Shown one piece after another: positions 53,509 to 64,000 of a stretch of 64,000 nt of DNA. Both the position numbers and the translations under genes were made by a program. The first letter of the stretch is position 1; each line of letters opens with the position of its first letter. Where the stretch lies: positions 310,001-374,000 of the forward strand of contig NZ_CP019300.1 of assembly GCF_001953955.1 (NCBI RefSeq), read 5' to 3'. The notes beneath the pieces were generated by a model that worked only from the letters and a program-made list of their open reading frames with translations, was not told the origin of the DNA and did no database searches. The stretch comes from Prevotella intermedia ATCC 25611 = DSM 20706 (lineage in GTDB: Bacteria > Bacteroidota > Bacteroidia > Bacteroidales > Bacteroidaceae).

Positions 53509-54132
53509 ATGGAGAACTTGGAAGCAATAAAGGTTTCGGGGGAGAGAGTGTCTTCTGAACATCTGAATGCAAATAAAGTTTACTTCGCAACAGAAGTTTT
53601 AAACGATAGTAACGTAATGCCAATTTACAACAAATTGTGCATGGTACTTGACATATACGATGTTAAGCACGAAATCGTTGAAGACCCTACAACGCATACT
53701 TGTAAGGTTTTGAAACCTTCTTGGCTTGCCAATAACGGAAAGATGGCAGACCACGTGGAATGTCTTGTGCGCTACATTGGCAACAAACGCGTGCTGATGA
53801 CCAACTGTGCAGAGTACAATGCAGAAGTGGCAGCAACCTTGAAAGAGAAGTTAGAAGCCGACGGCTACGAGGTTGTGGAACTCAGCTATTCGTCTTGCGC
53901 AGGTGTCCGCGATGCCAAAGATATGAGCTGGGCATACATCAACTACATTCAAACATCGAAAGTAGTAATCGTACCTATGCAGCGTGCAAAGGAAGACAAG
54001 GAAGCTTTGCGCCAAATAAAGGCTTGCTTCCCCGACTTGGCAGTAGTGGGCGTCTATGCAAAGCCCTTCTTCAGCGACGAGGGCGAGTTTATCTGTTACA
54101 GTAAGAGCATTAAAGAAAACGCAATATCGTAA
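53509..54132 (+). CDS. Short agmatine-deiminase-like (pentein-fold) protein
   Basis: A 207-residue protein that aligns by eye to the C-terminal half of agmatine deiminase/PAD_porph enzymes: NGKMADHVECLVRYIG for the usual GHxD segment, SWAYINYIQTSKVVIVPM for SYxNFYxxNxxVxxP, FPDLAVVGVYA, and GEFICYSKS where the catalytic-Cys GGIHCIT lies. His82 and Cys196 are thus kept, but the N-terminal 150 or so residues and the Gly-rich loop are missing. It could be a degenerate enzyme or a single-domain hydrolase. The gene has its own promoter and terminator. Confidence 0.6.
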   Translation: MENLEAIKVSGERVSSEHLNANKVYFATEVLNDSNVMPIYNKLCMVLDIYDVKHEIVEDPTTHTCKVLKPSWLANNGKMADHVECLVRYIGNKRVLMTNCAEYNAEVAATLKEKLEADGYEVVELSYSSCAGVRDAKDMSWAYINYIQTSKVVIVPMQRAKEDKEALRQIKACFPDLAVVGVYAKPFFSDEGEFICYSKSIKENAIS

Positions 54133-54490: not shown

Positions 54491-54543
54491 ACTATAAAAG
54501 GAAAAGAGTTGCATAGATTTTGCAACTCTTTTCCTTTTATAGT
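54491..54543 (-). terminator. Perfect 23-bp hairpin beside the tRNA fragment
   Basis: The arms 54491-54513 and 54521-54543 are perfect complements (23 bp, loop TAGATTT). On the minus strand it directly follows the 3' end of the tRNA-Met remnant and carries T-rich tracts, so it was probably the tRNA's terminator before the element inserted. Confidence 0.7.
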
Positions 54544-54585
54544 GGACCAGCTAGGGCTTGAACCAGGGACCTCCAGATTATGAGT
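54543..54585 (-). other. 3' half of tRNA-Met(CAT): attachment site of the integrated element
   Basis: Read on the minus strand this is the tRNA from the anticodon loop CTCATAA onward: 3' anticodon stem TCTGG, variable loop AGGTC, T-arm with TTCAAGC loop, acceptor strand CTGGTCC and discriminator A. The 5' half is absent; unrelated sequence starts next to the loop. The T-stem strands CCTGG and CCTAG have two mismatches (the paired form would be CTAGG), so the fragment is no longer under tRNA selection. Confidence 0.8.
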
Positions 54586-54699: not shown

Positions 54700-54785
54700 T
54701 GTTTTCCCTTTGTTTTCCCGATAATCATCGGAAAATATGGGATTTTGGAAGAAAATGAGGGTACTTGTTTTCCCATTGTTTTCCC
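54700..54785. repeat. Four TGTTTTCCC direct repeats in two helically phased pairs
   Basis: Identical 9-mers start at 54700, 54711, 54766 and 54777. Each pair is 11 bp apart (one helical turn) and the pairs are 66 bp apart. They lie between the tRNA fragment and the integrase coding region, where arm-type recombinase or directionality-factor sites are expected. An ATCATCGG-centred palindrome (TTTTCCCGATAATCATCGGA at 54713-54732) overlaps the second repeat. Confidence 0.65.
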
Positions 54786-54832
54786 AAAATAGAGAAAAAT
54801 GTGAAGTTGAAACCTCCAGACTATTGGCAGAA

Positions 54833-56296
54833 ATGGCAAAGAAATTAGAAACAACTTATAAGAGCGCAAGATTCGGAATTTGCACCTATGCGCTCATCCT
54901 TGACAAGCGTCATCCGAAGAAAGACAGAAACACGTTTCCTGTCGCAATGCGCTACACCATAGACAGAAAGTCATGGTACAACTTTGTGGCTGGCGAGTTT
55001 ACGAAAGAGGATTTTTCAAAGATATGTACGCTCAGTGCCAAGGCGGTTCGTTCAGAACTCTATGACAAGAAGGTGGAATTTGATGCCATCTTTGAGAGGC
55101 AAGTAGAGCTTATTGAGCGTCTGGGAAATAGTCTGACGCTCGATAGAATTAAGACTGCCATAACGGGTGTAGACACATCCAAGGAAGCTTCCTTCTTTAG
55201 CGTATGGCAGGATAGGATTAATTTCTTTAGGACCAACAACAATGGGGAGCAATACACCACTGCTGAGTCATACGAGTGTGCCATGAAGTCATTTCAAAAG
55301 ATTCTCTGGGACAGGCCAATTACAGGCTTTAAGGTAGGGAAGGAGGATATTGAATACTGGAGCAACGGAATGCAGAATGGTGTATTGAACGAGAAAGGTG
55401 AGATGATCGGTCAAATAAGAGAGGCAACAAGAGGTCTTTATCTCCGAAACTGTCGTGCCGTCTGGAATGAATGCGTATCGCTGGGCTATCTTACTAATCA
55501 AGAATATCCATTTTCTAATGTCAAGAAAAAGAAGCTCGTAGCGATACCTGTCGGCGACACAAGGAAGAACCACTACCTAAATGTCCAGCAGATGACAGAA
55601 CTGTATCGGGTGTTTATAGATAAACGCTATCCTGACACATGGAAGAAAGGTTATGTTGAAAATGCCCATTATTCATTGGGATTGTTCCTTGCCCAATACC
55701 TGTGTAACGGTTTCAATATGGCCGATGCAGCCGAACTTAAGTATTCGAAATTCTATTTCGACTCGGGCAGGAAAGCATTCAAGTTCAAACGGGTGAAGAC
55801 CAGAAATCGCACAGAAGGGGGCGGTGAAATAATAATCCCCATCATAGAACCATTACAGAAAATTCTTGATGAGATTGCCGCAGAACCAGTTCTAAATGGC
55901 TTCGTATTCCCTGACATTCTTCAGGGTGCTACGCATAAGGCTATTAAGCGCAAACGAATCTCTCAGGAGAACTCAAATGTGCAAGACCGCGTCATCAAAA
56001 TCTCTCAGGATGTATTAAATTGGGAGGTTCGCCCATCGGGAACATGGTGCAGGCATTCTTACGGAACAAATCTAACCCATGCCCAAGTAGAGGACAGGTA
56101 TATTTCACAGAGTATGGGACATTCGACAGACAAGACCATTACAGAAAGATACATTGCTCAATATCCGTTGGAAACAATGTTCGAGTTTAATAGCAAATTG
56201 TTGGATATGGAGCCAAAAGTAACAGTGGAGGACATCAAGAACATGACGGAGGAGCAGAAAACAGAGATGCTTCTTAAACTCTTGGAAAAGAAGTAG
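54833..56296 (+). CDS. int: Tyrosine recombinase / integrase
   Basis: A 487-residue integrase of the large Bacteroidetes type: an N-terminal arm-binding segment, a core-binding helical domain, and a catalytic domain with RHSYGTN (Arg407, His408), MGHSTDKT (His430) and the nucleophile Tyr440 in TERYI. The position of the first catalytic Arg is Asn292 in YLCNGFNMADAAEL. IntDOT of CTnDOT also lacks this Arg. The frame is open from 54737, but the ATG at 54833 (MAKKLETTYKSARFG) fits the family better and leaves the TGTTTTCCC repeats non-coding. Confidence 0.9.
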   Translation: MAKKLETTYKSARFGICTYALILDKRHPKKDRNTFPVAMRYTIDRKSWYNFVAGEFTKEDFSKICTLSAKAVRSELYDKKVEFDAIFERQVELIERLGNSLTLDRIKTAITGVDTSKEASFFSVWQDRINFFRTNNNGEQYTTAESYECAMKSFQKILWDRPITGFKVGKEDIEYWSNGMQNGVLNEKGEMIGQIREATRGLYLRNCRAVWNECVSLGYLTNQEYPFSNVKKKKLVAIPVGDTRKNHYLNVQQMTELYRVFIDKRYPDTWKKGYVENAHYSLGLFLAQYLCNGFNMADAAELKYSKFYFDSGRKAFKFKRVKTRNRTEGGGEIIIPIIEPLQKILDEIAAEPVLNGFVFPDILQGATHKAIKRKRISQENSNVQDRVIKISQDVLNWEVRPSGTWCRHSYGTNLTHAQVEDRYISQSMGHSTDKTITERYIAQYPLETMFEFNSKLLDMEPKVTVEDIKNMTEEQKTEMLLKLLEKK

Positions 56297-56874
56297 AACA
56301 TAGCAAAGGAGAACGGATATGAGACCTTTTGAGGATTCCCAGAAGAATGCCATGAGAGAAGCCATGGAACGTGTGTTTTCGTGGAAGCAGGAGCATACAG
56401 AAGAATACTCGCGCTTCTCCCCGGATATGATGAAGGTGGAGCGCAACGACTTCAGTTGTCTTGAACGTATTTTCAAGATGGCTGTTGGCTTTGTGCCAGC
56501 CTCCGTGCTTATCGAATGCCAGAAGTTGTTCGCTTCCAATTCGGAAGTTGTCTTGTCTGCCGACGAAAAAGCAGCTGCCGCCACTCGTGTTGTCGATGAA
56601 CTGATGAAGCTGAAAGGCTATTTGCGCTTCGGGGTATATACGGAAACCATAGGTAAAAAGAGTGATGCCAACCTTGCGCAAACTACAGAGCGAGGAGAGC
56701 AGTTCTTGATTAGGGAATTCAGTCTAGCAGACGAAGACCAGAGCGAGAAAGACGACGAGCATATTTACATCCCCTTCGTGACCGCTCAGGAGTTTTGGGA
56801 TTCATTGCCTTCCTTTATTCAGATGGCGGTATTCACTCTAGGCAAAGGACATTCTGCCGATGAAATGGCTACTC

Positions 56875-56881
56875 TATCAAA
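56875..56881. repeat. Target-site duplication, left copy
   Basis: TATCAAA, identical to 57907-57913 and directly abutting the left inverted repeat of the IS. Confidence 0.9.
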
Positions 56882-57906
56882 ACGTGAGTTCGATATAAGA
56901 AAGTTGTTTTAAAAGTTGTAGGAGTGGAATATTTTTTGTACCTTTATACTTGTAAACCAAAGAGTTACAAACAAATACCCACTCCTATGACTGATACAAA
57001 TTTAATAGAAATATTCTGTATATTCGACGATTTTTGCAAGTATTTTACTCCAGAGTTGAAAAAACATACGCTTCAGGTACCCGGCAAGCGGCACCGTAAC
57101 CGTGTTTCCCGTATGTCAGACAGTGAAATCATGACCATTCTGGTCCTGTTCCACACTCACCGCTTCCGAGACCTCAAGTCCTTCTACTTAGGCTATATCT
57201 GCCAGCATATGCGTGGAGACTTCCCACATCGGATTTCCTACAACCGCTTCGTCGAGCGACAAGCACAGGTCGCACTGCACCTGTTGCTGTTTCTCCAGAC
57301 ATGTGCACTGGGCAAGTGTTCAGGCATATCCATCATTGATTCCACACCACTGGCTTCCTGCCACATCAAGCGTGAGCGGCAGCACAGGACCATGAGGGGC
57401 TGGGCGGCAAAGGGAAAGTGCACCATGGGCTGGTTCTACGGCTTCAAGCTACATCTTGTCATCAATGACAAGGGAGAGATTATCCAGTGGAAGCTCACGC
57501 CAGGAAACGTAGATGACAGGGAGCCACTGAAGGACAAACGCTTCACCGAGAGGTTGTTTGGGAAACTCTTCGCAGACAGGGGGTATATCAGTCAGAACCT
57601 CTTTGAGATGCTCTTTGTGGACAATATACATTTAGTGACAAAGATAAAGAAGAACATGAAGAACTCCCTGATGAGCCTGTATGATAAGTTGTTGCTCAGA
57701 AAGCGTTCTGTGATAGAGACGGTGAACGATGAACTGAAGAATGTATGTCAGATAGAACACACCAGACATCGCTCTTTTGATAACTTTGCAACAAATCTGA
57801 TAGCAGGACTCATTGCATACAATCTGTTGCCAAAGAAGCCAGAAATGAACATAGAAATAATTGATAAAAGCAGAATAATTGCATAGAGCTTATATCGAAC
57901 TCACGT
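56882..57906 (+). mobile_element. IS982-family insertion sequence, complete
   Basis: 1025 bp with perfect 18-bp terminal inverted repeats (ACGTGAGTTCGATATAAG at 56882-56899; complement at 57889-57906) and 7-bp flanking duplications. It contains one intact transposase gene. The intact ends and exact duplication indicate a recent insertion. Confidence 0.93.
56987..57886 (+). CDS. IS982 family transposase
   Basis: A 299-residue DDE transposase. The catalytic residues are visible in GISIIDSTPL (Asp), FADRGYIS (Asp) and SVIETVNDELKN (Glu), with the C-terminal IEHTRHRS motif and GWFYGFKLHLVINDKGE typical of IS982. It is full length, so the element may be active. A 5' in-frame ATG at 56924 is possible, but MTDTNLIEIF matches the family N-terminus better. 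Confidence 0.93.
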   Translation: MTDTNLIEIFCIFDDFCKYFTPELKKHTLQVPGKRHRNRVSRMSDSEIMTILVLFHTHRFRDLKSFYLGYICQHMRGDFPHRISYNRFVERQAQVALHLLLFLQTCALGKCSGISIIDSTPLASCHIKRERQHRTMRGWAAKGKCTMGWFYGFKLHLVINDKGEIIQWKLTPGNVDDREPLKDKRFTERLFGKLFADRGYISQNLFEMLFVDNIHLVTKIKKNMKNSLMSLYDKLLLRKRSVIETVNDELKNVCQIEHTRHRSFDNFATNLIAGLIAYNLLPKKPEMNIEIIDKSRIIA

Positions 57907-57913
57907 TATCAAA
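57907..57913. repeat. Target-site duplication, right copy
   Basis: TATCAAA directly after the right inverted repeat; identical to 56875-56881. Confidence 0.9.
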
Positions 57914-58738
57914 GAGAATCATGCTCTCTGCCATCCAAGCGTTGCCAGAGATGTTCATCAAAGTTCGCAATCAGATAATGGCAGGTAGCAATTCCTTATT
58001 GATGTGTACGTTGTACTATGTCTGCTATGACCACGGACTGCCCAAAAGTGCGATGGCACTTAGCAAGGTTAGCCTTGGCACCAAACAGACTTCGTATATT
58101 CGTGAAAGCGTCAAAGCCATCGTTGAAAGCCTTGTTGAGACCAGTATCACGAAGGGACTCGACAAGAAAACAGAGTGGACCAAGCAGTCCAAGGGTGTTG
58201 AAGATTCAGAGTTGCGCCAAGCGATAAAGACCACCCTTGCCAATACGCAAGGCAAGCATGGCCGCAGAACCATCCTGCAAGAAGAACGGAGCCTTGATGA
58301 CATTCTCATTGCAGATGACGAGCAAGCTTTGAAGGAAGCGATAATGACTGCACTCAATGATATGGAACACGAATATGAGACAGCCTACATCAAGGCGGCA
58401 CTCATCCGATCCAATCATCTTAGTTCTGACATATCCTTTGCGGTATTCCTACGTGCCATTTGTTCTTTCGCTGACAAGGAATACAAATACGACCCAGCCC
58501 AGAGGGTTGATTCCTTCATTATGTATGAGAAGAAGAATTTTGAGGCTTCCAAGAGTTCAAAGTGGCAACGTGGAAGAAGGATTGTATCGTATTTGACAGA
58601 AGTGTTTAGGGCAATGCCAAATACAATAGACAAACCCTAGCAAAAGTATAGGTTATGGGAAATAATGATTCGTGATAAAAAAGTGCAAAAAGATTATAAA
58701 AAACTAAAGGTTATTAATTTCGTTTTATAGAAAATACC

Positions 58739-58794: not shown

Positions 58795-60048
58795 ATGAGT
58801 ATTAGTAAAGATGTCATCAAACAGTGCCTGATTAGTAAGCAGCGCGAAGTGGATGAGGCGGTACTTGTGAACCGTCCTACAGACTTTGAAGAGAATGGCA
58901 ATTATGTGATAGTTGGCGTGAGGCATGCGGGTAAGTCGTATCTGCTGTATCAGCGCGTGCGTCAGCTGCAGGAGGAAGGAAAGGGATGGGACGAGATTCT
59001 GTTTGTGGACTTTGAGGATGAGCGTCTGGCGGAATTCCAGACGGAAGACTTTAACAGTCTGCTGGAAGCCCATCTGGAACTGTATGGTAAGAAGCCGGTG
59101 GTGTTTTTGGACGAGGTGCAGAACATTCCGCATTGGGATAAGTTCGTGCGTAGGTTGACTGATGCGAAATACAGGGTGTATGTGACAGGTAGCAATGCGA
59201 AGATGCTGAGCAAGGAGGTGGCGACTACGTTGGGCGGACGGTTCTTTATCTACGATGCGTACCCATATTCATTCAAAGAGTATCTGGCAGCGCAGCAGGT
59301 GGAACTGAGGGAGCATTGGGAGTATGACACGATTCAGAGAAGTGAGGTGAAGCGGCATCTGAATGAGTATTTCTATTACGGCGGTCTGCCAGAGATCCTG
59401 TCGTTTCAGAACAAGCGGGCTATGCTTTCAAGCTTGTACCAGAAGATCTACCTAGGTGACATCTGCGCCCGAAATAACATTAAAAACGACAGAGTGCTGA
59501 ACATCTTGATCAAGAAAATGGCAGAAAGCGTGAAGCAACCACTGTCGTATAACAGGCTGAAGAACGTGATAGTGGCAACGGGGTCGCCCATCAGTGTGCC
59601 TACTACGATAGACTATGCGGATTATGCCGCTGATAGTTGGCTAATATTGCCCATGGAGAATGAGATTGGGAAGCTGACGGAGAAGGAGACACAGAAGAAA
59701 TACTACTTCGTTGATAACGGTTTACTGAACCTGTTCCTGATGAACTCAGAGACATCGCTACTGGAGAACATGGTGGCGGTGGAGCTATTCAGACGATACG
59801 GCAAGGAGAATGTGTATTATCTGAATGCTGACAAGGAGATAGACTTCATAGTACCTGACGAGAAGCTAGCCATACAGGTGTCCTACAGCATCAAGGATGA
59901 GACCACTTACAACAGGGAGGTGCCACCACTGGTCAAGTATGCCAAAGCGCACGAGGACTGGAAGTGCCTGCTGATTACTTACGATGAGGAGGGCACGGAA
60001 AAGGAAATACCCGTGGTACCGGTGTGGAAGTGGCTGATGAAGGTGTGA
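58795..60048 (+). CDS. AAA_14/DUF4143 ATPase
   Basis: A 417-residue protein with an N-terminal AAA_14 ATPase and a C-terminal DUF4143 nuclease-like domain. Walker A is GVRHAGKS (41-48) and Walker B VVFLDEVQ (102-109). TGSNAKMLSKEVATTLGGR is the sensor segment. The end has the EVDFI-like KEIDFIVPDEKLAIQV motif. These proteins are common in anaerobe genomes and mobile regions; their role is unclear. It has its own promoter and lies between the split gene and the MBL operon. Confidence 0.9.
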   Translation: MSISKDVIKQCLISKQREVDEAVLVNRPTDFEENGNYVIVGVRHAGKSYLLYQRVRQLQEEGKGWDEILFVDFEDERLAEFQTEDFNSLLEAHLELYGKKPVVFLDEVQNIPHWDKFVRRLTDAKYRVYVTGSNAKMLSKEVATTLGGRFFIYDAYPYSFKEYLAAQQVELREHWEYDTIQRSEVKRHLNEYFYYGGLPEILSFQNKRAMLSSLYQKIYLGDICARNNIKNDRVLNILIKKMAESVKQPLSYNRLKNVIVATGSPISVPTTIDYADYAADSWLILPMENEIGKLTEKETQKKYYFVDNGLLNLFLMNSETSLLENMVAVELFRRYGKENVYYLNADKEIDFIVPDEKLAIQVSYSIKDETTYNREVPPLVKYAKAHEDWKCLLITYDEEGTEKEIPVVPVWKWLMKV

Positions 60049-60146: not shown

Positions 60147-61352
60147 ATGAGAGCAATAATAAAAACATTTGAATCAGGAGCAGGCGACTGTATCTTTCTC
60201 GTAATGAAAGATGAGACGGATGGCAGCCGTTTTCATATTATGATGGACTGCAATGTATTGACAGATGAGATAAAAGCTTATATACGTGATGAACTTTACA
60301 AACATATAGATGTACTCATAGTTACTCATATTGACAGTGACCATGCTAATGGTATAACCAAGCTAATGCGTACCCCTGATTTTGCAGAGATGCAAATAGG
60401 GATGATTCTGTTCAATGGGTTTCAGCCGCAAACGGAACAATCTCAGCTATTGCCATCCGAAACTATAGCAAAACTAAAAGCAGTGACTGAATTATTGCCA
60501 CCGACGGTAGATGAAGCATTGCAAAAAACGAATGGAATGGATGCGGCATGTTTAATCACTGAGTTGAATAAGCATCCACGATGGAAAGTCGTATGGAGAC
60601 AAGCTCCGATATTGGCAGGGGAAACGATACCGCTTGGTAATGATGAAAAATGGGGAAGACTGAGAGTGCTGTCTCCAACACAAGATGTGATGGACAATTT
60701 GCTACACGATGTAAAATTGGAATATGCCAAAAGATTAGGTTCTGCACCTCCAAATGAGGATTTCTTGGATCAGGATAAATACTACGAATTGATGCTGCGA
60801 CTATCAGAATTACGTAAAAGGCCTTCTTTGTCAAGAAAAGTCAATGCTGCAGCCATCACTAAAGAAACGCTGATTAATAACGCAAAAACAAATGCAGAAG
60901 AAAATAGTGTTACCAATGCTAATAAAGCTTCACTCGCTTTCTGTTGGGAAGGTGGTGAAGAGCTGAAACGCATTCTTCTGATGGGAGATGCCGTATCATC
61001 ACAAGTCGTGAATGAATTAAATGATATCGATGATGACAGAATATGGTTTGAAGCTGTGAAGGTGTCACACCACGGGAGCAAGCATAATACTAGTATAGAA
61101 CTAAATGCTAAAGTTGATTCGGCTCACTACTTCTTTACAGGCGGAAAAGATAATGAGGGGCCAGATGTTGAAACTGTTGCAAAAATAGTTATGAAACCGC
61201 TGGCTGAGGGAATAGTACAACGGGAGATTCATTATAACCATGAGAAAGGAATCAACCTTTGGAAAGAACTGAATAAAGAAAATGCAATACAATTGCTTAA
61301 TAATCATCATACACAGTTGAATACAGACAATACATATGAATTTGAATATTGA
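60147..61352 (+). CDS. ComEC-like metallo-beta-lactamase-fold protein (AVAST type I A-like)
   Basis: A 401-residue soluble MBL-fold hydrolase. The metal motif is THIDSDH (His61, Asp63, Asp65, His66), as in ComEC/Rec2-type MBL domains. A later ILLMGDA and VSHHGSKHN (His308, His309) supply the remaining ligands. It has no membrane segments, unlike ComEC itself. Its stop overlaps the start of the peptidase-STAND gene by 17 nt, so the two work together. MBL proteins of this type accompany trypsin-like and STAND proteins in AVAST type I anti-phage systems; that assignment is by analogy. Confidence 0.85.
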   Translation: MRAIIKTFESGAGDCIFLVMKDETDGSRFHIMMDCNVLTDEIKAYIRDELYKHIDVLIVTHIDSDHANGITKLMRTPDFAEMQIGMILFNGFQPQTEQSQLLPSETIAKLKAVTELLPPTVDEALQKTNGMDAACLITELNKHPRWKVVWRQAPILAGETIPLGNDEKWGRLRVLSPTQDVMDNLLHDVKLEYAKRLGSAPPNEDFLDQDKYYELMLRLSELRKRPSLSRKVNAAAITKETLINNAKTNAEENSVTNANKASLAFCWEGGEELKRILLMGDAVSSQVVNELNDIDDDRIWFEAVKVSHHGSKHNTSIELNAKVDSAHYFFTGGKDNEGPDVETVAKIVMKPLAEGIVQREIHYNHEKGINLWKELNKENAIQLLNNHHTQLNTDNTYEFEY

Positions 61353-64000
61353 CAATTACGGAGACAAGGGTGTAGTTCCCGTATTTTGTGGAAGCTATGT
61401 AAGTGGCACAGCTTTCTTTGTAACGCCAACACACCTGTTAACAGCAGGCCATGTAATAGCTGAGTATATTTTAGACAAAGAGGCAATGGTTGCAGTGGTT
61501 GTGGAAGAGGAGTACAAGGTTTGCCGCGTACTTGTACATCAAGCCAACCCTGATGTCGCTATTTTGGAATGTGTTGACTATATATGCCCTAATGAGTATG
61601 TACTGCCATTACTAGCCAGTAAGTTTAAAGAGAGTATTGATTTGTTGATAGTCGGGTATCCGAGAGAACTGGGAAACGGCGTGGATTATTTCGGGGTGAC
61701 TGTAAAAAATAGTCGGGAGAAAGCAGACCTTAAAGGGGGCTTTGACCGAATGGTTGTAAGAACTGACAGTTTTGGCTTCAATAGCTATGAAGGTTTTTCT
61801 GGGTCGCCAGTGATTAATGACTTCGGAATGGTTGTAGGTATAGAAACAGACCAACTCTACTATTCGTTAGGCTATCTTTCCATCGCAGCCATTAAAGAAC
61901 TGGTTGAAAAGGAAACAGAAATCAGAATAGAGGAGAATAACGATTTATATGATAACACCCCGTATGGTCTGAGAAGGAGTTATAACCACATACGAGAGCA
62001 CACTGCCGACATGCTCAAAACACGTTATAATGACAAGGTTCATGTAGAAAATGAGGAAGTAGAAAAGACAATACAGCGATTTTGCGGCTATGGATTTGAA
62101 GAGGAACGGGTTGAAATACATGATGAGTATAAGGCTTGGTATGATAAAATGGCTGGTGTCAGACTATCATATATTGATAGTATCACTCAACTTGTAAACT
62201 ATTTACAAGATGGAATTATCACAGATGGGGTCAAAGGCGAAATGGAGAAGCTATTTAATTTGAGGGATAGCGAAAAGAAACTCCATGCTGACCACAGTAA
62301 GGAGTTGCGATCCATTTATAAAAAGATATATACATGGCTTCGTAATAAGAGGTTATACGAAGAAAGACAATTTATGCACGTTAGTGGTACTGCTGGGTGC
62401 GGAAAGTCTCATTTGCTTTATAGGGAGGCTCTTGAAATAAGTAATTGCCAACGGATATATATGCTATTAGGTTCGGAATTTTCATCCTTGGAAGATCCAG
62501 AGAATACTATAGCACGTGTTATGGGGTGGAAAAGTAGTGATCCGCTTAAAGAACTGAATGATGAACTTGCACATGAAGAAGGGAAAACTGCAACTATCAT
62601 TATTGATGCTCTGAATGAAGGGGCGGGTACTCACTTTTGGATGGAGCAATTACCAATTCTAAAGAACAAGATTTCCCGTTACAGTCATCTGAAGATGATA
62701 GTATCGCTTAGGACGCTTTCGAAAGAAGACCAACTCAACGATATCCTGAGAGACGATTGGCATTCTTTGAGGGTAGAAGGTTTTAAGAACCGCAAAAAGG
62801 CAATCGGGAATTATTTCGAGGCATACGAGATTATGACGAACGAAGCACCATATACAAAAATAGCGGAATTCACCAATCCGTTATTTCTGAGAATGTTTTG
62901 TGAAACTTACTATAGTCAGACACAAGAAGAACGAGAGAAGGTATTAAGGCTTCCCATCTATAAGCGATATTTAGAAAAGCGTAACTACGAAATATCTGAC
63001 GGCGTGGATGAAGATGTAAAACGGGATATAACCAGCAAGTATATATTGTGGGTTGCACAACGCTCACTTGAACAGTTCCAATGTGATGACTTGCCAAGGC
63101 AATTGGCTTATAAGCGTTCTTATAAACTTTGTCCTTTCAGGACGTGGAAAAATAGCCTATTGAGAAACTGTCTAGAAGCCAATCTGCTTCGTGAATATAC
63201 TACTGAAAAAGATGACTTTGTAGATTTTGAGTTCGATTCGATGGGTGACTACTTGAAAGCAGAACGTCTGCTGAGCCGTAATTGTGATGACGGCGACCGC
63301 TTTAAGACACTCGTTAGAATATACGATAAAATGGATGCTGATTATAGTTCGAATCAAAATTGGCAGAAGAAACTTAATTTTGTAAAAGCCTTTCTGAGTG
63401 TATGGAACCCACCTGCAGCTATATGGCAAAAACCTGAGTTCATGAAAGGAAAACTGACGAGTCTATTGTTAAGCAGTATGCCTTTACGTAATCAGCGAGA
63501 TGAAGAGAATACACTTACTTCGGATATTATAGGGAGTATCCTTCAAAACAATCCTGACTATATCCAACCCGAACTTATATTGCAGAACATTGAACTGTAC
63601 AGTACGGGGCTGATGGATAAAGTACATGCTAAGTTGATGGATATGACTATGTCTGTGCGCGACTTGGCATGGACAACCAATGTGAACGGATTGTTCGATG
63701 GAGCGTATTATCAGGATCTTTTAGAACCTCTACAACTTACCTTGCAGCACGAAATAGAAACGTTGCTGACGGTTGAAATATGGATGCTGAGCACAAGTTT
63801 CCCTTATTTAAGGGCTTATATGATGAGGAAAGTGAAAGAACTATTATCAGAGCATGCAGACAAAACAAACGAAATGATAGTCAAGTTCCATGCTGTGAAT
63901 GACCCGTATATCCTATCAGGCCTATATACCGCGGTTTATGGTGTAATTGTCAGCGTTGACAAAGCTGATTTCAGCAGAGGTGTTGCAGAACAAATTTTAT
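61336..64000 (+). CDS. Trypsin-like peptidase fused to a STAND NTPase (partial, runs off the right edge)
   Basis: 888 codons are visible. Residues 1-190 are a trypsin-fold serine peptidase with the complete triad: His39 (LTAGH), Asp73 (NPDVAILE) and Ser155 (EGFSGSP). A linker follows, including LKTRYNDKVHVEN, which is like the pre-NTPase motif of Avs proteins. The STAND NTPase has Walker A GTAGCGKS (351-358), Walker B TIIIDALNE (Asp424) and VSLRT. The region after about residue 560 is helical and would be the sensor, with its end unseen. Inferred role: phage-triggered protease activation causing abortive infection. Confidence 0.85.
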   Translation, partial: MNLNIDNYGDKGVVPVFCGSYVSGTAFFVTPTHLLTAGHVIAEYILDKEAMVAVVVEEEYKVCRVLVHQANPDVAILECVDYICPNEYVLPLLASKFKESIDLLIVGYPRELGNGVDYFGVTVKNSREKADLKGGFDRMVVRTDSFGFNSYEGFSGSPVINDFGMVVGIETDQLYYSLGYLSIAAIKELVEKETEIRIEENNDLYDNTPYGLRRSYNHIREHTADMLKTRYNDKVHVENEEVEKTIQRFCGYGFEEERVEIHDEYKAWYDKMAGVRLSYIDSITQLVNYLQDGIITDGVKGEMEKLFNLRDSEKKLHADHSKELRSIYKKIYTWLRNKRLYEERQFMHVSGTAGCGKSHLLYREALEISNCQRIYMLLGSEFSSLEDPENTIARVMGWKSSDPLKELNDELAHEEGKTATIIIDALNEGAGTHFWMEQLPILKNKISRYSHLKMIVSLRTLSKEDQLNDILRDDWHSLRVEGFKNRKKAIGNYFEAYEIMTNEAPYTKIAEFTNPLFLRMFCETYYSQTQEEREKVLRLPIYKRYLEKRNYEISDGVDEDVKRDITSKYILWVAQRSLEQFQCDDLPRQLAYKRSYKLCPFRTWKNSLLRNCLEANLLREYTTEKDDFVDFEFDSMGDYLKAERLLSRNCDDGDRFKTLVRIYDKMDADYSSNQNWQKKLNFVKAFLSVWNPPAAIWQKPEFMKGKLTSLLLSSMPLRNQRDEENTLTSDIIGSILQNNPDYIQPELILQNIELYSTGLMDKVHAKLMDMTMSVRDLAWTTNVNGLFDGAYYQDLLEPLQLTLQHEIETLLTVEIWMLSTSFPYLRAYMMRKVKELLSEHADKTNEMIVKFHAVNDPYILSGLYTAVYGVIVSVDKADFSRGVAEQIL

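Follow-up and report, generated by a model that had tools for sequence, protein, structure and literature searches.

A probable nuclease–protease gene pair in Prevotella intermedia

The stretch analyzed here (the window, 64,000 nucleotides, G000:C1:310001-374000 of the 2.67-Mb genome of Prevotella intermedia ATCC 25611 = DSM 20706) contains two overlapping genes, one for a metallo-β-lactamase (MBL)-fold protein and one for a large protein, the sensor, in which a trypsin-like serine protease is fused to a STAND NTPase. Together they form an AVAST-like defense module whose working principle is already published; what is new is the divergent branch to which the sensor belongs and the different residues predicted to be cut in its partner. 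Coordinates are window positions unless prefixed (Table 1). Both open reading frames (ORFs) and their 17-nucleotide overlap lie where the original prediction for this DNA had placed them, and the protease triad and Walker A motif are intact, as it had reported. With the earliest possible start codon taken as the gene start, an overlap of 17-23 nucleotides recurs in 13 of the 20 other loci that combine a trypsin head with an MBL gene, and the overlap probably couples translation of the two genes. Because of this recurrence and the 518 sensor homologues found at E≤1e-3, 120 of which are listed, the pairing is not a matter of chance. The nearest organism-named protein among the 120 listed homologues comes from a Prevotella histicola metagenome-assembled genome (P0019, 95% identity), and an uninterrupted homologue is present in the type strain Phocaeicola vulgatus ATCC 8482 (L053).

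Table 1. Features of the gene pair and of the left end of its carrier element
Feature	Position	Strand	Basis or remark
MBL-fold putative pro-nuclease (Avs1a/HamM-like, ComEC nuclease fold), 401 aa	60147..61352	+	
MBL metal-site motif T-H-I-D-S-D-H, residues 60-66	60324..60344	+	
MBL gate loop 1, residues 120-133; predicted cut after Thr128 (60528-60530)	60504..60545	+	pLDDT <50; alignment to conserved Ile of Avs1a and HamM (PMC12799240)
MBL gate loop 2, residues 226-234; predicted cut after Val232 (60840-60842)	60822..60848	+	pLDDT <50; alignment to second conserved Ile (PMC12799240)
MBL Asp281	60987-60989	+	
MBL HHGS, residues 308-311	61068-61079	+	
Gene overlap, 17 nt	61336..61352	+	ORF coordinates
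Protease-STAND protein, 1335 aa	61336..64000, runs past window to G000:C1:375344	+	ORF and flanking sequence
Trypsin-like protease domain, residues 24-169	61405..61842	+	Pfam Trypsin_2 PF13365, above cut-off
His39	61450-61452	+	protease triad
Asp73	61552-61554	+	protease triad
Ser155	61798-61800	+	protease triad
Walker A GTAGCGKS, residues 351-358, in Avs2-like STAND core	62386..62409	+	
Left attachment (att) repeat	54542..54585	.	right copy G000:C1:392410-392453 in 3' part of tRNA-Met(cat); 42/44 identical
Tyrosine recombinase of carrier element	54737..56296	+	PF00589 24.6 bits, slightly under 27.1 cut-off

In a 22-row alignment of the sensor, the protease triad and Gly356-Lys357 of the Walker A motif are invariant. 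Comparison with hidden Markov models (HMMs) of the Avs families, which the original prediction had proposed, returned Avs2 as the best match without reaching any NCBIfam Avs1 or Avs2 cut-off. The leading PADLOC models are PDLC02164 (383.9 bits, best stretch 218-989) and PDLC02162 (307.5 bits, 249-1326), both Avs2, and the best PDB sequence match is the solved Avs2 9o4e. The NCBIfam Avs2 model NF041813 gives 315.9 bits against a 1000-bit cut-off, and the Avs1b model NF041810 gives 21 bits, over residues 16-231 only, against one of 1500 bits. The protease head matches the LmuA, RT-protease and HamA models; searched alone, it scores 27.5 bits with Avs1b and does not match the PADLOC Avs2 model PDLC02163. 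Taken together, these matches indicate that the head and its partner are of the shared nuclease–protease type and that the core is related to Avs2 but divergent. Judged by sequence, the STAND core is not an Avs1 core; it represents a deep branch on the Avs2 side whose members are mostly from Bacteroidales.

The putative gated nuclease and its association with the protease head

The best structural match of the MBL is a ComEC domain (266 versus 401 residues). Its PADLOC scores are 165.7 bits with the LmuA-associated MBL, 97.8 with Avs1a and 85.3 with the RT-associated MBL, and NCBIfam Avs1a NF041809 gives 134.6 bits, under the 420-bit cut-off. Residues 60-66, Asp281 and HHGS 308-311, which we take from the MBL fold to be the metal ligands, are all invariant in a 22-row alignment (A3) except for I62 and S64.

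In the pairs described by Tuck et al. 2025 (PMC12799240), the MBL has a gene of its own, most often placed upstream, and the protease is joined to one or another defense enzyme; these proteases turn the MBL into a DNase by cleaving it at two gating loops. The same paper reports cleavage of PflHamM after I118 and I218 with DNase activation, and a dependence of EpiAvs on I134 and I234. An AlphaFold2 model of the P. intermedia MBL built on alignment A3 (mean predicted local distance difference test score, pLDDT, 84.2) contains two disordered insertions relative to the ComEC nuclease, and its stretches of at least three residues with pLDDT <50 are 120-133 and 226-234. The published cut positions align to Thr128 and Val232, each inside one of these stretches. 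A motif search of reference proteins located the corresponding residues at I136/I237, I143/I246 and I134/I235 in Avs1a and at I116/I215 in HamM. Among 30 MBLs as aligned, the residue preceding the cut (P1) is Ile in 18, Val in 6, Thr in 4, Lys in 1 and Ser in 1 at site 1, and Ile in 17, Val in 6, Thr in 2, Leu in 2, Lys in 2 and Ala in 1 at site 2; an apparent 3-residue misalignment affects L078 and L087 at both gates (judged by eye) and L033, L034 and L041 at gate 2. The 120 near relatives examined have Thr in 116 of 118 matched strings and Lys in the other 2 at site 1, and Thr in 73, Ile in 19 and Val in 19 of 111 at site 2, but they are 86-100% identical and therefore not independent.

The association of the two genes was examined in the best 80 of 502 confirmed loci, retrieved with two peptide patterns from trypsin-headed proteins, together with loci from other searches, so the frequencies are not census figures. 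This core type is present in 91 loci, 84 of which have an assessable N-terminus: 21 combine a trypsin head with an MBL gene, 1 has the head only, none the MBL only, and 62 have neither. An MBL gene thus adjoins 21 of 22 trypsin-headed cores versus 0 of 62 others, and the window shows the same arrangement, with the MBL gene neighboring a trypsin head that is joined to a defense core. The MBL gene is upstream in 19 of the 21 loci and downstream in L078 (5888-11369) and L087 (334-5851), where a weaker-scoring trypsin head is joined to an Avs2-like core. MBL genes also adjoin trypsin-headed genes annotated as a NACHT protein on a Lysinibacillus plasmid (L042, 7992-12325) and as an ABC-three-component system protein on a Providencia plasmid (L036, 6992-13130), settings outside the AVAST, Hachiman, Lamassu and DRT systems named in the accessible text of PMC12799240.

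The evolution of the fusion was addressed with a midpoint-rooted quick tree of 84 cores, which has long branches and from which we left out duplicates (L001, L003, L043), partial or broken records (L006, L047, L052, L060, L066, L067, L111) and cores of <800 residues. Its 17 trypsin-headed rows occupy three places. The window's clade has 15 rows, 13 of them trypsin-headed and the remaining two truncated by a contig edge, and stands separate beside 69 rows that include the annotated Avs2 proteins L048 and L049. L078 and L087 fall in a five-row clade with three headless rows, one of them cut, and L080 and L102 are the third place. L080, from Pseudoalteromonas, is a clear Avs2 (1138 bits) with an Avs1b-type head (89.6 bits) and an upstream MBL. 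The MBL tree (29 rows), from which, as from the protease tree, L058 was left out, likewise scatters the partners of Avs2-like cores over three places. That Avs2-like cores acquired the trypsin head only once was rejected on the core tree (approximately unbiased [AU] test, p 6e-81), and the MBL tree recovered one group in 0 of 200 bootstraps; the starred branches of the MBL and protease trees force only two changes. For a second label count and the AU test, four rows that had lost their N-terminus at a contig edge were set aside and L046, which is not assessable, was kept as ‘other’.

Of 150 genomes of the genus, five contain a core match at E≤1e-20, and in two of these (the window's genome and G401) it extends over the protease end; in a third (G540, L047), a purpose-built HMM places the head in the L078-like score range. 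Relatives found by tblastn are all <60% identical; with the MBL as query they occur in 30 plasmid records and 1 phage, and with the sensor in 69 plasmid records and 2 phages. The one that has the full two-gene architecture, MT836073, is labelled a phage. A first scan of genome contigs with a single protein gave 9 pattern matches, none of them confirmed. A phylum search with the Avs1a family matched 198 of 395 genomes, none of the matches, the window's own included, being above cut-off; because 9 of 14 control genomes also matched, it was not used for frequency.

The sensor C-terminus and the carrier element

The sensor gene is cut by the window edge, and the full C-terminus, which the original prediction had wanted to see, shows that the ORF closes after 1335 residues at an in-frame stop (L002:9342-9344). 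We call this stop premature because 111 of the 120 listed homologues are 1361-1421 aa long. A C-terminal element, Q-[PKS]-[LMI]-[RT]-x-E, found near the end of 102 of the 120, is absent from the 1335-aa sensor. Relatives do have longer copies with no interruption. In a cluster of 39 sequences (P0061), 99% identical to the sensor, the predicted proteins begin only at residue 347 and lack the protease head; sensor copies that are broken or miscalled may be common.

The integrative element in which the original prediction had placed the pair could be confirmed and bounded by direct repeats at both ends, the right one inside tRNA-Met(cat). It is 27,912 bp long, lies in the 3' part of this tRNA gene and has its recombinase beside the left repeat; no Rfam family reached its gathering score in the left att region. 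Downstream of the module are C5-methyltransferase, MzaB-, MzaC- and MzaD-like genes (a Mza-like defense operon) and a gene with an AIPR domain. Directly 5' of it is an AAA_14/DUF4143 ATPase (58795-60048) that matches the PADLOC candidate defense family PDC-S01 with 323 bits. A DUF6043 gene seems to be interrupted at 56319-58640, where an insertion sequence (IS) carrying a DDE transposase (56924-57886) is flanked by two ORFs; one aligns with positions 10-52 and the other with positions 122-261 of the DUF6043 profile, neither reaching its curated cut-off. Near the right end, relaxase-like and accessory-protein-like ORFs recognized by eye (L147, 3749-5448) suggest that the element is mobilizable. 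The gene just outside the left att repeat (53509-54132) matches only positions 169-318 of the 321 in the PAD_porph profile and so may be a C-terminal piece or a short form. A 259-aa ORF after the sensor was considered as a third component and dropped, having no family match above cut-off; it has no relative among the ORFs of 131 loci besides its own place, and in 8 relatives the ORFs after the sensor, compared by length and strand, differ in one or the other.

Proposed mechanism and relation to known systems

The pair is most probably a two-gene abortive-infection system in which a sensor with a built-in protease unlocks a dormant MBL DNase. The C-terminal region of the sensor would bind a conserved phage protein, perhaps one involved in DNA packaging, for instance the large terminase. 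Oligomerization of the STAND NTPase would follow and switch on the N-terminal serine protease, which is predicted to cut both disordered gating loops of the MBL, after Thr128 and Val232. Loop cutting would open the metal site of the ComEC-type nuclease, and the freed DNase would destroy phage and host DNA. What the analysis itself shows is the gene architecture, the intact catalytic residues, the co-occurrence, the modelled loop disorder and the position of the cut motifs. Cleavage, DNase activation and a terminase trigger are published for relatives; for this family, the trigger, oligomerization and cut residues are inferred. The original prediction had cast the MBL as a second effector or activator, whereas in the published systems it is the MBL that acts as effector, switched on by the protease.

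Several observations weigh against an unlocked DNase acting in this way. The conserved Ile is not the cut residue at either gate, where Thr128 and Val232 stand instead, and the likeness of the two cut sites within one protein, which exceeds that in shuffles, is inflated by relatedness. The wider Avs2 group is only ∼25% identical to the sensor and the curated Avs2 cut-off is missed, so the trigger may differ. L047, a broken record, is the sole trypsin-headed core without an MBL alongside. Given its premature stop, the copy in this strain, whose sensor is missing its conserved C-terminal end, may be impaired, weak or dead.

That the system of this strain is a decaying remnant, its protein made non-functional by the stop, is quite plausible, if not what we expect: the sensor is short and has lost its C-terminal element, the 39-sequence cluster is predicted without a head, and an IS interrupts a gene close by. 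Against this, the triad, Walker A and MBL metal site are intact, 1335 of about 1380-1412 residues are kept, the sensor ORF has no further interruption, and a sequencing error could be the source of the stop. The protease might also act directly on phage or host proteins, as proteases do in other defense systems, with the MBL as an unconnected hydrolase that just accompanies it. The co-occurrence of MBL and trypsin head, the gate loops with their paired motifs, and the MBL cleavage shown in Hachiman and AVAST (PMC12799240) make this very unlikely. It is also unlikely that the MBL acts on RNA or a small molecule and not as a DNase, a role suggested by the RNases (RNase J, Z) and esterases among MBL folds, which rank after ComEC in the structural list.

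The original prediction described an AVAST type I-like module in which parts normally encoded by separate genes had been fused. The AVAST-like combination of MBL, protease and STAND holds, but the assignment to type I is not supported. A single protein lies between avs1a and avs1c in three plasmid loci, from Chimaeribacter (1910 aa), Priestia (1939 aa) and Cupriavidus (1938 aa), annotated as a serine protease in two and as avs1b in one. All three have a head that matches the trypsin HMM and a Walker A motif at 229-236, and the Chimaeribacter protein is Avs1b by PADLOC (2137 bits); a search for G-x-S-G-x-P found no serine motif in the Chimaeribacter and Cupriavidus proteins, whose heads match the trypsin HMM nonetheless. 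Fusion is therefore a known state. The coupling of sensing to proteolysis is not novel, having been shown for Hachiman and AVAST (PMC12799240), and the Avs2 model PDLC02163 itself seems trypsin-headed (the L078 head matches its positions 1-210 with 268.7 bits). An HMM of three Avs1c proteins matches no ORF in L002, and it finds its control, a Priestia copy that is one of its training sequences, at 9e-49. Homology links the MBL to Avs1a and the trypsin head to that of Avs1b, but with an Avs2-like core and an Avs1b match limited to the head region, a canonical type 1 system with fused protease and STAND genes is highly improbable, and we rejected a type I system with a new fusion.

These results extend the published principle, a fused protease that unlocks a dormant nuclease, to a divergent, mostly Bacteroidales sensor branch, and they support the view that the cassette has repeatedly moved from one sensor type to another. 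The combination may already be shown in the founding AVAST papers, and we do not claim that it is unpublished. More tentatively, the nuclease–protease cassette could have joined Avs2-like sensors more than once, with protease and gates shifting together from Ile to Thr/Val in the window's lineage; such pairs would not cross-react with Ile-type pairs in the same cell, and the sensor branch may read another phage protein. The natural change of cleavage residue offers material for testing protease–gate co-evolution.

Like AVAST type 1 (avs1a-avs1b-avs1c, e.g. Cupriavidus necator pHG1), the P. intermedia module has an MBL gene followed by a protease-STAND fusion, but its STAND core is a different one, its sensor has 1335 aa (1361-1421 in listed full-length homologues) versus 1910-1939, and avs1c was not found in its locus. 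With AVAST type 2 (PADLOC PDLC02161-02166, NCBIfam NF041813, PDB 9o4e) it shares a homologous STAND core over ∼218-1326 and, through PDLC02163, apparently the trypsin head, whereas it forms a deep separate branch, scores 316 bits against the 1000-bit cut-off and has a head that, alone, gives no PDLC02163 match. In design it parallels the AVAST, Hachiman, Lamassu and DRT pairs (PMC12799240), in which the MBL is likewise encoded separately, most often upstream, and carries two disordered insertions, a trypsin-like head sits on a defense core, and the cut motifs are at the same places. The core here is a divergent Avs2-like STAND, a term (Avs2) absent from the main text of that paper, and the predicted P1 residues are Thr128 and Val232, not Ile.

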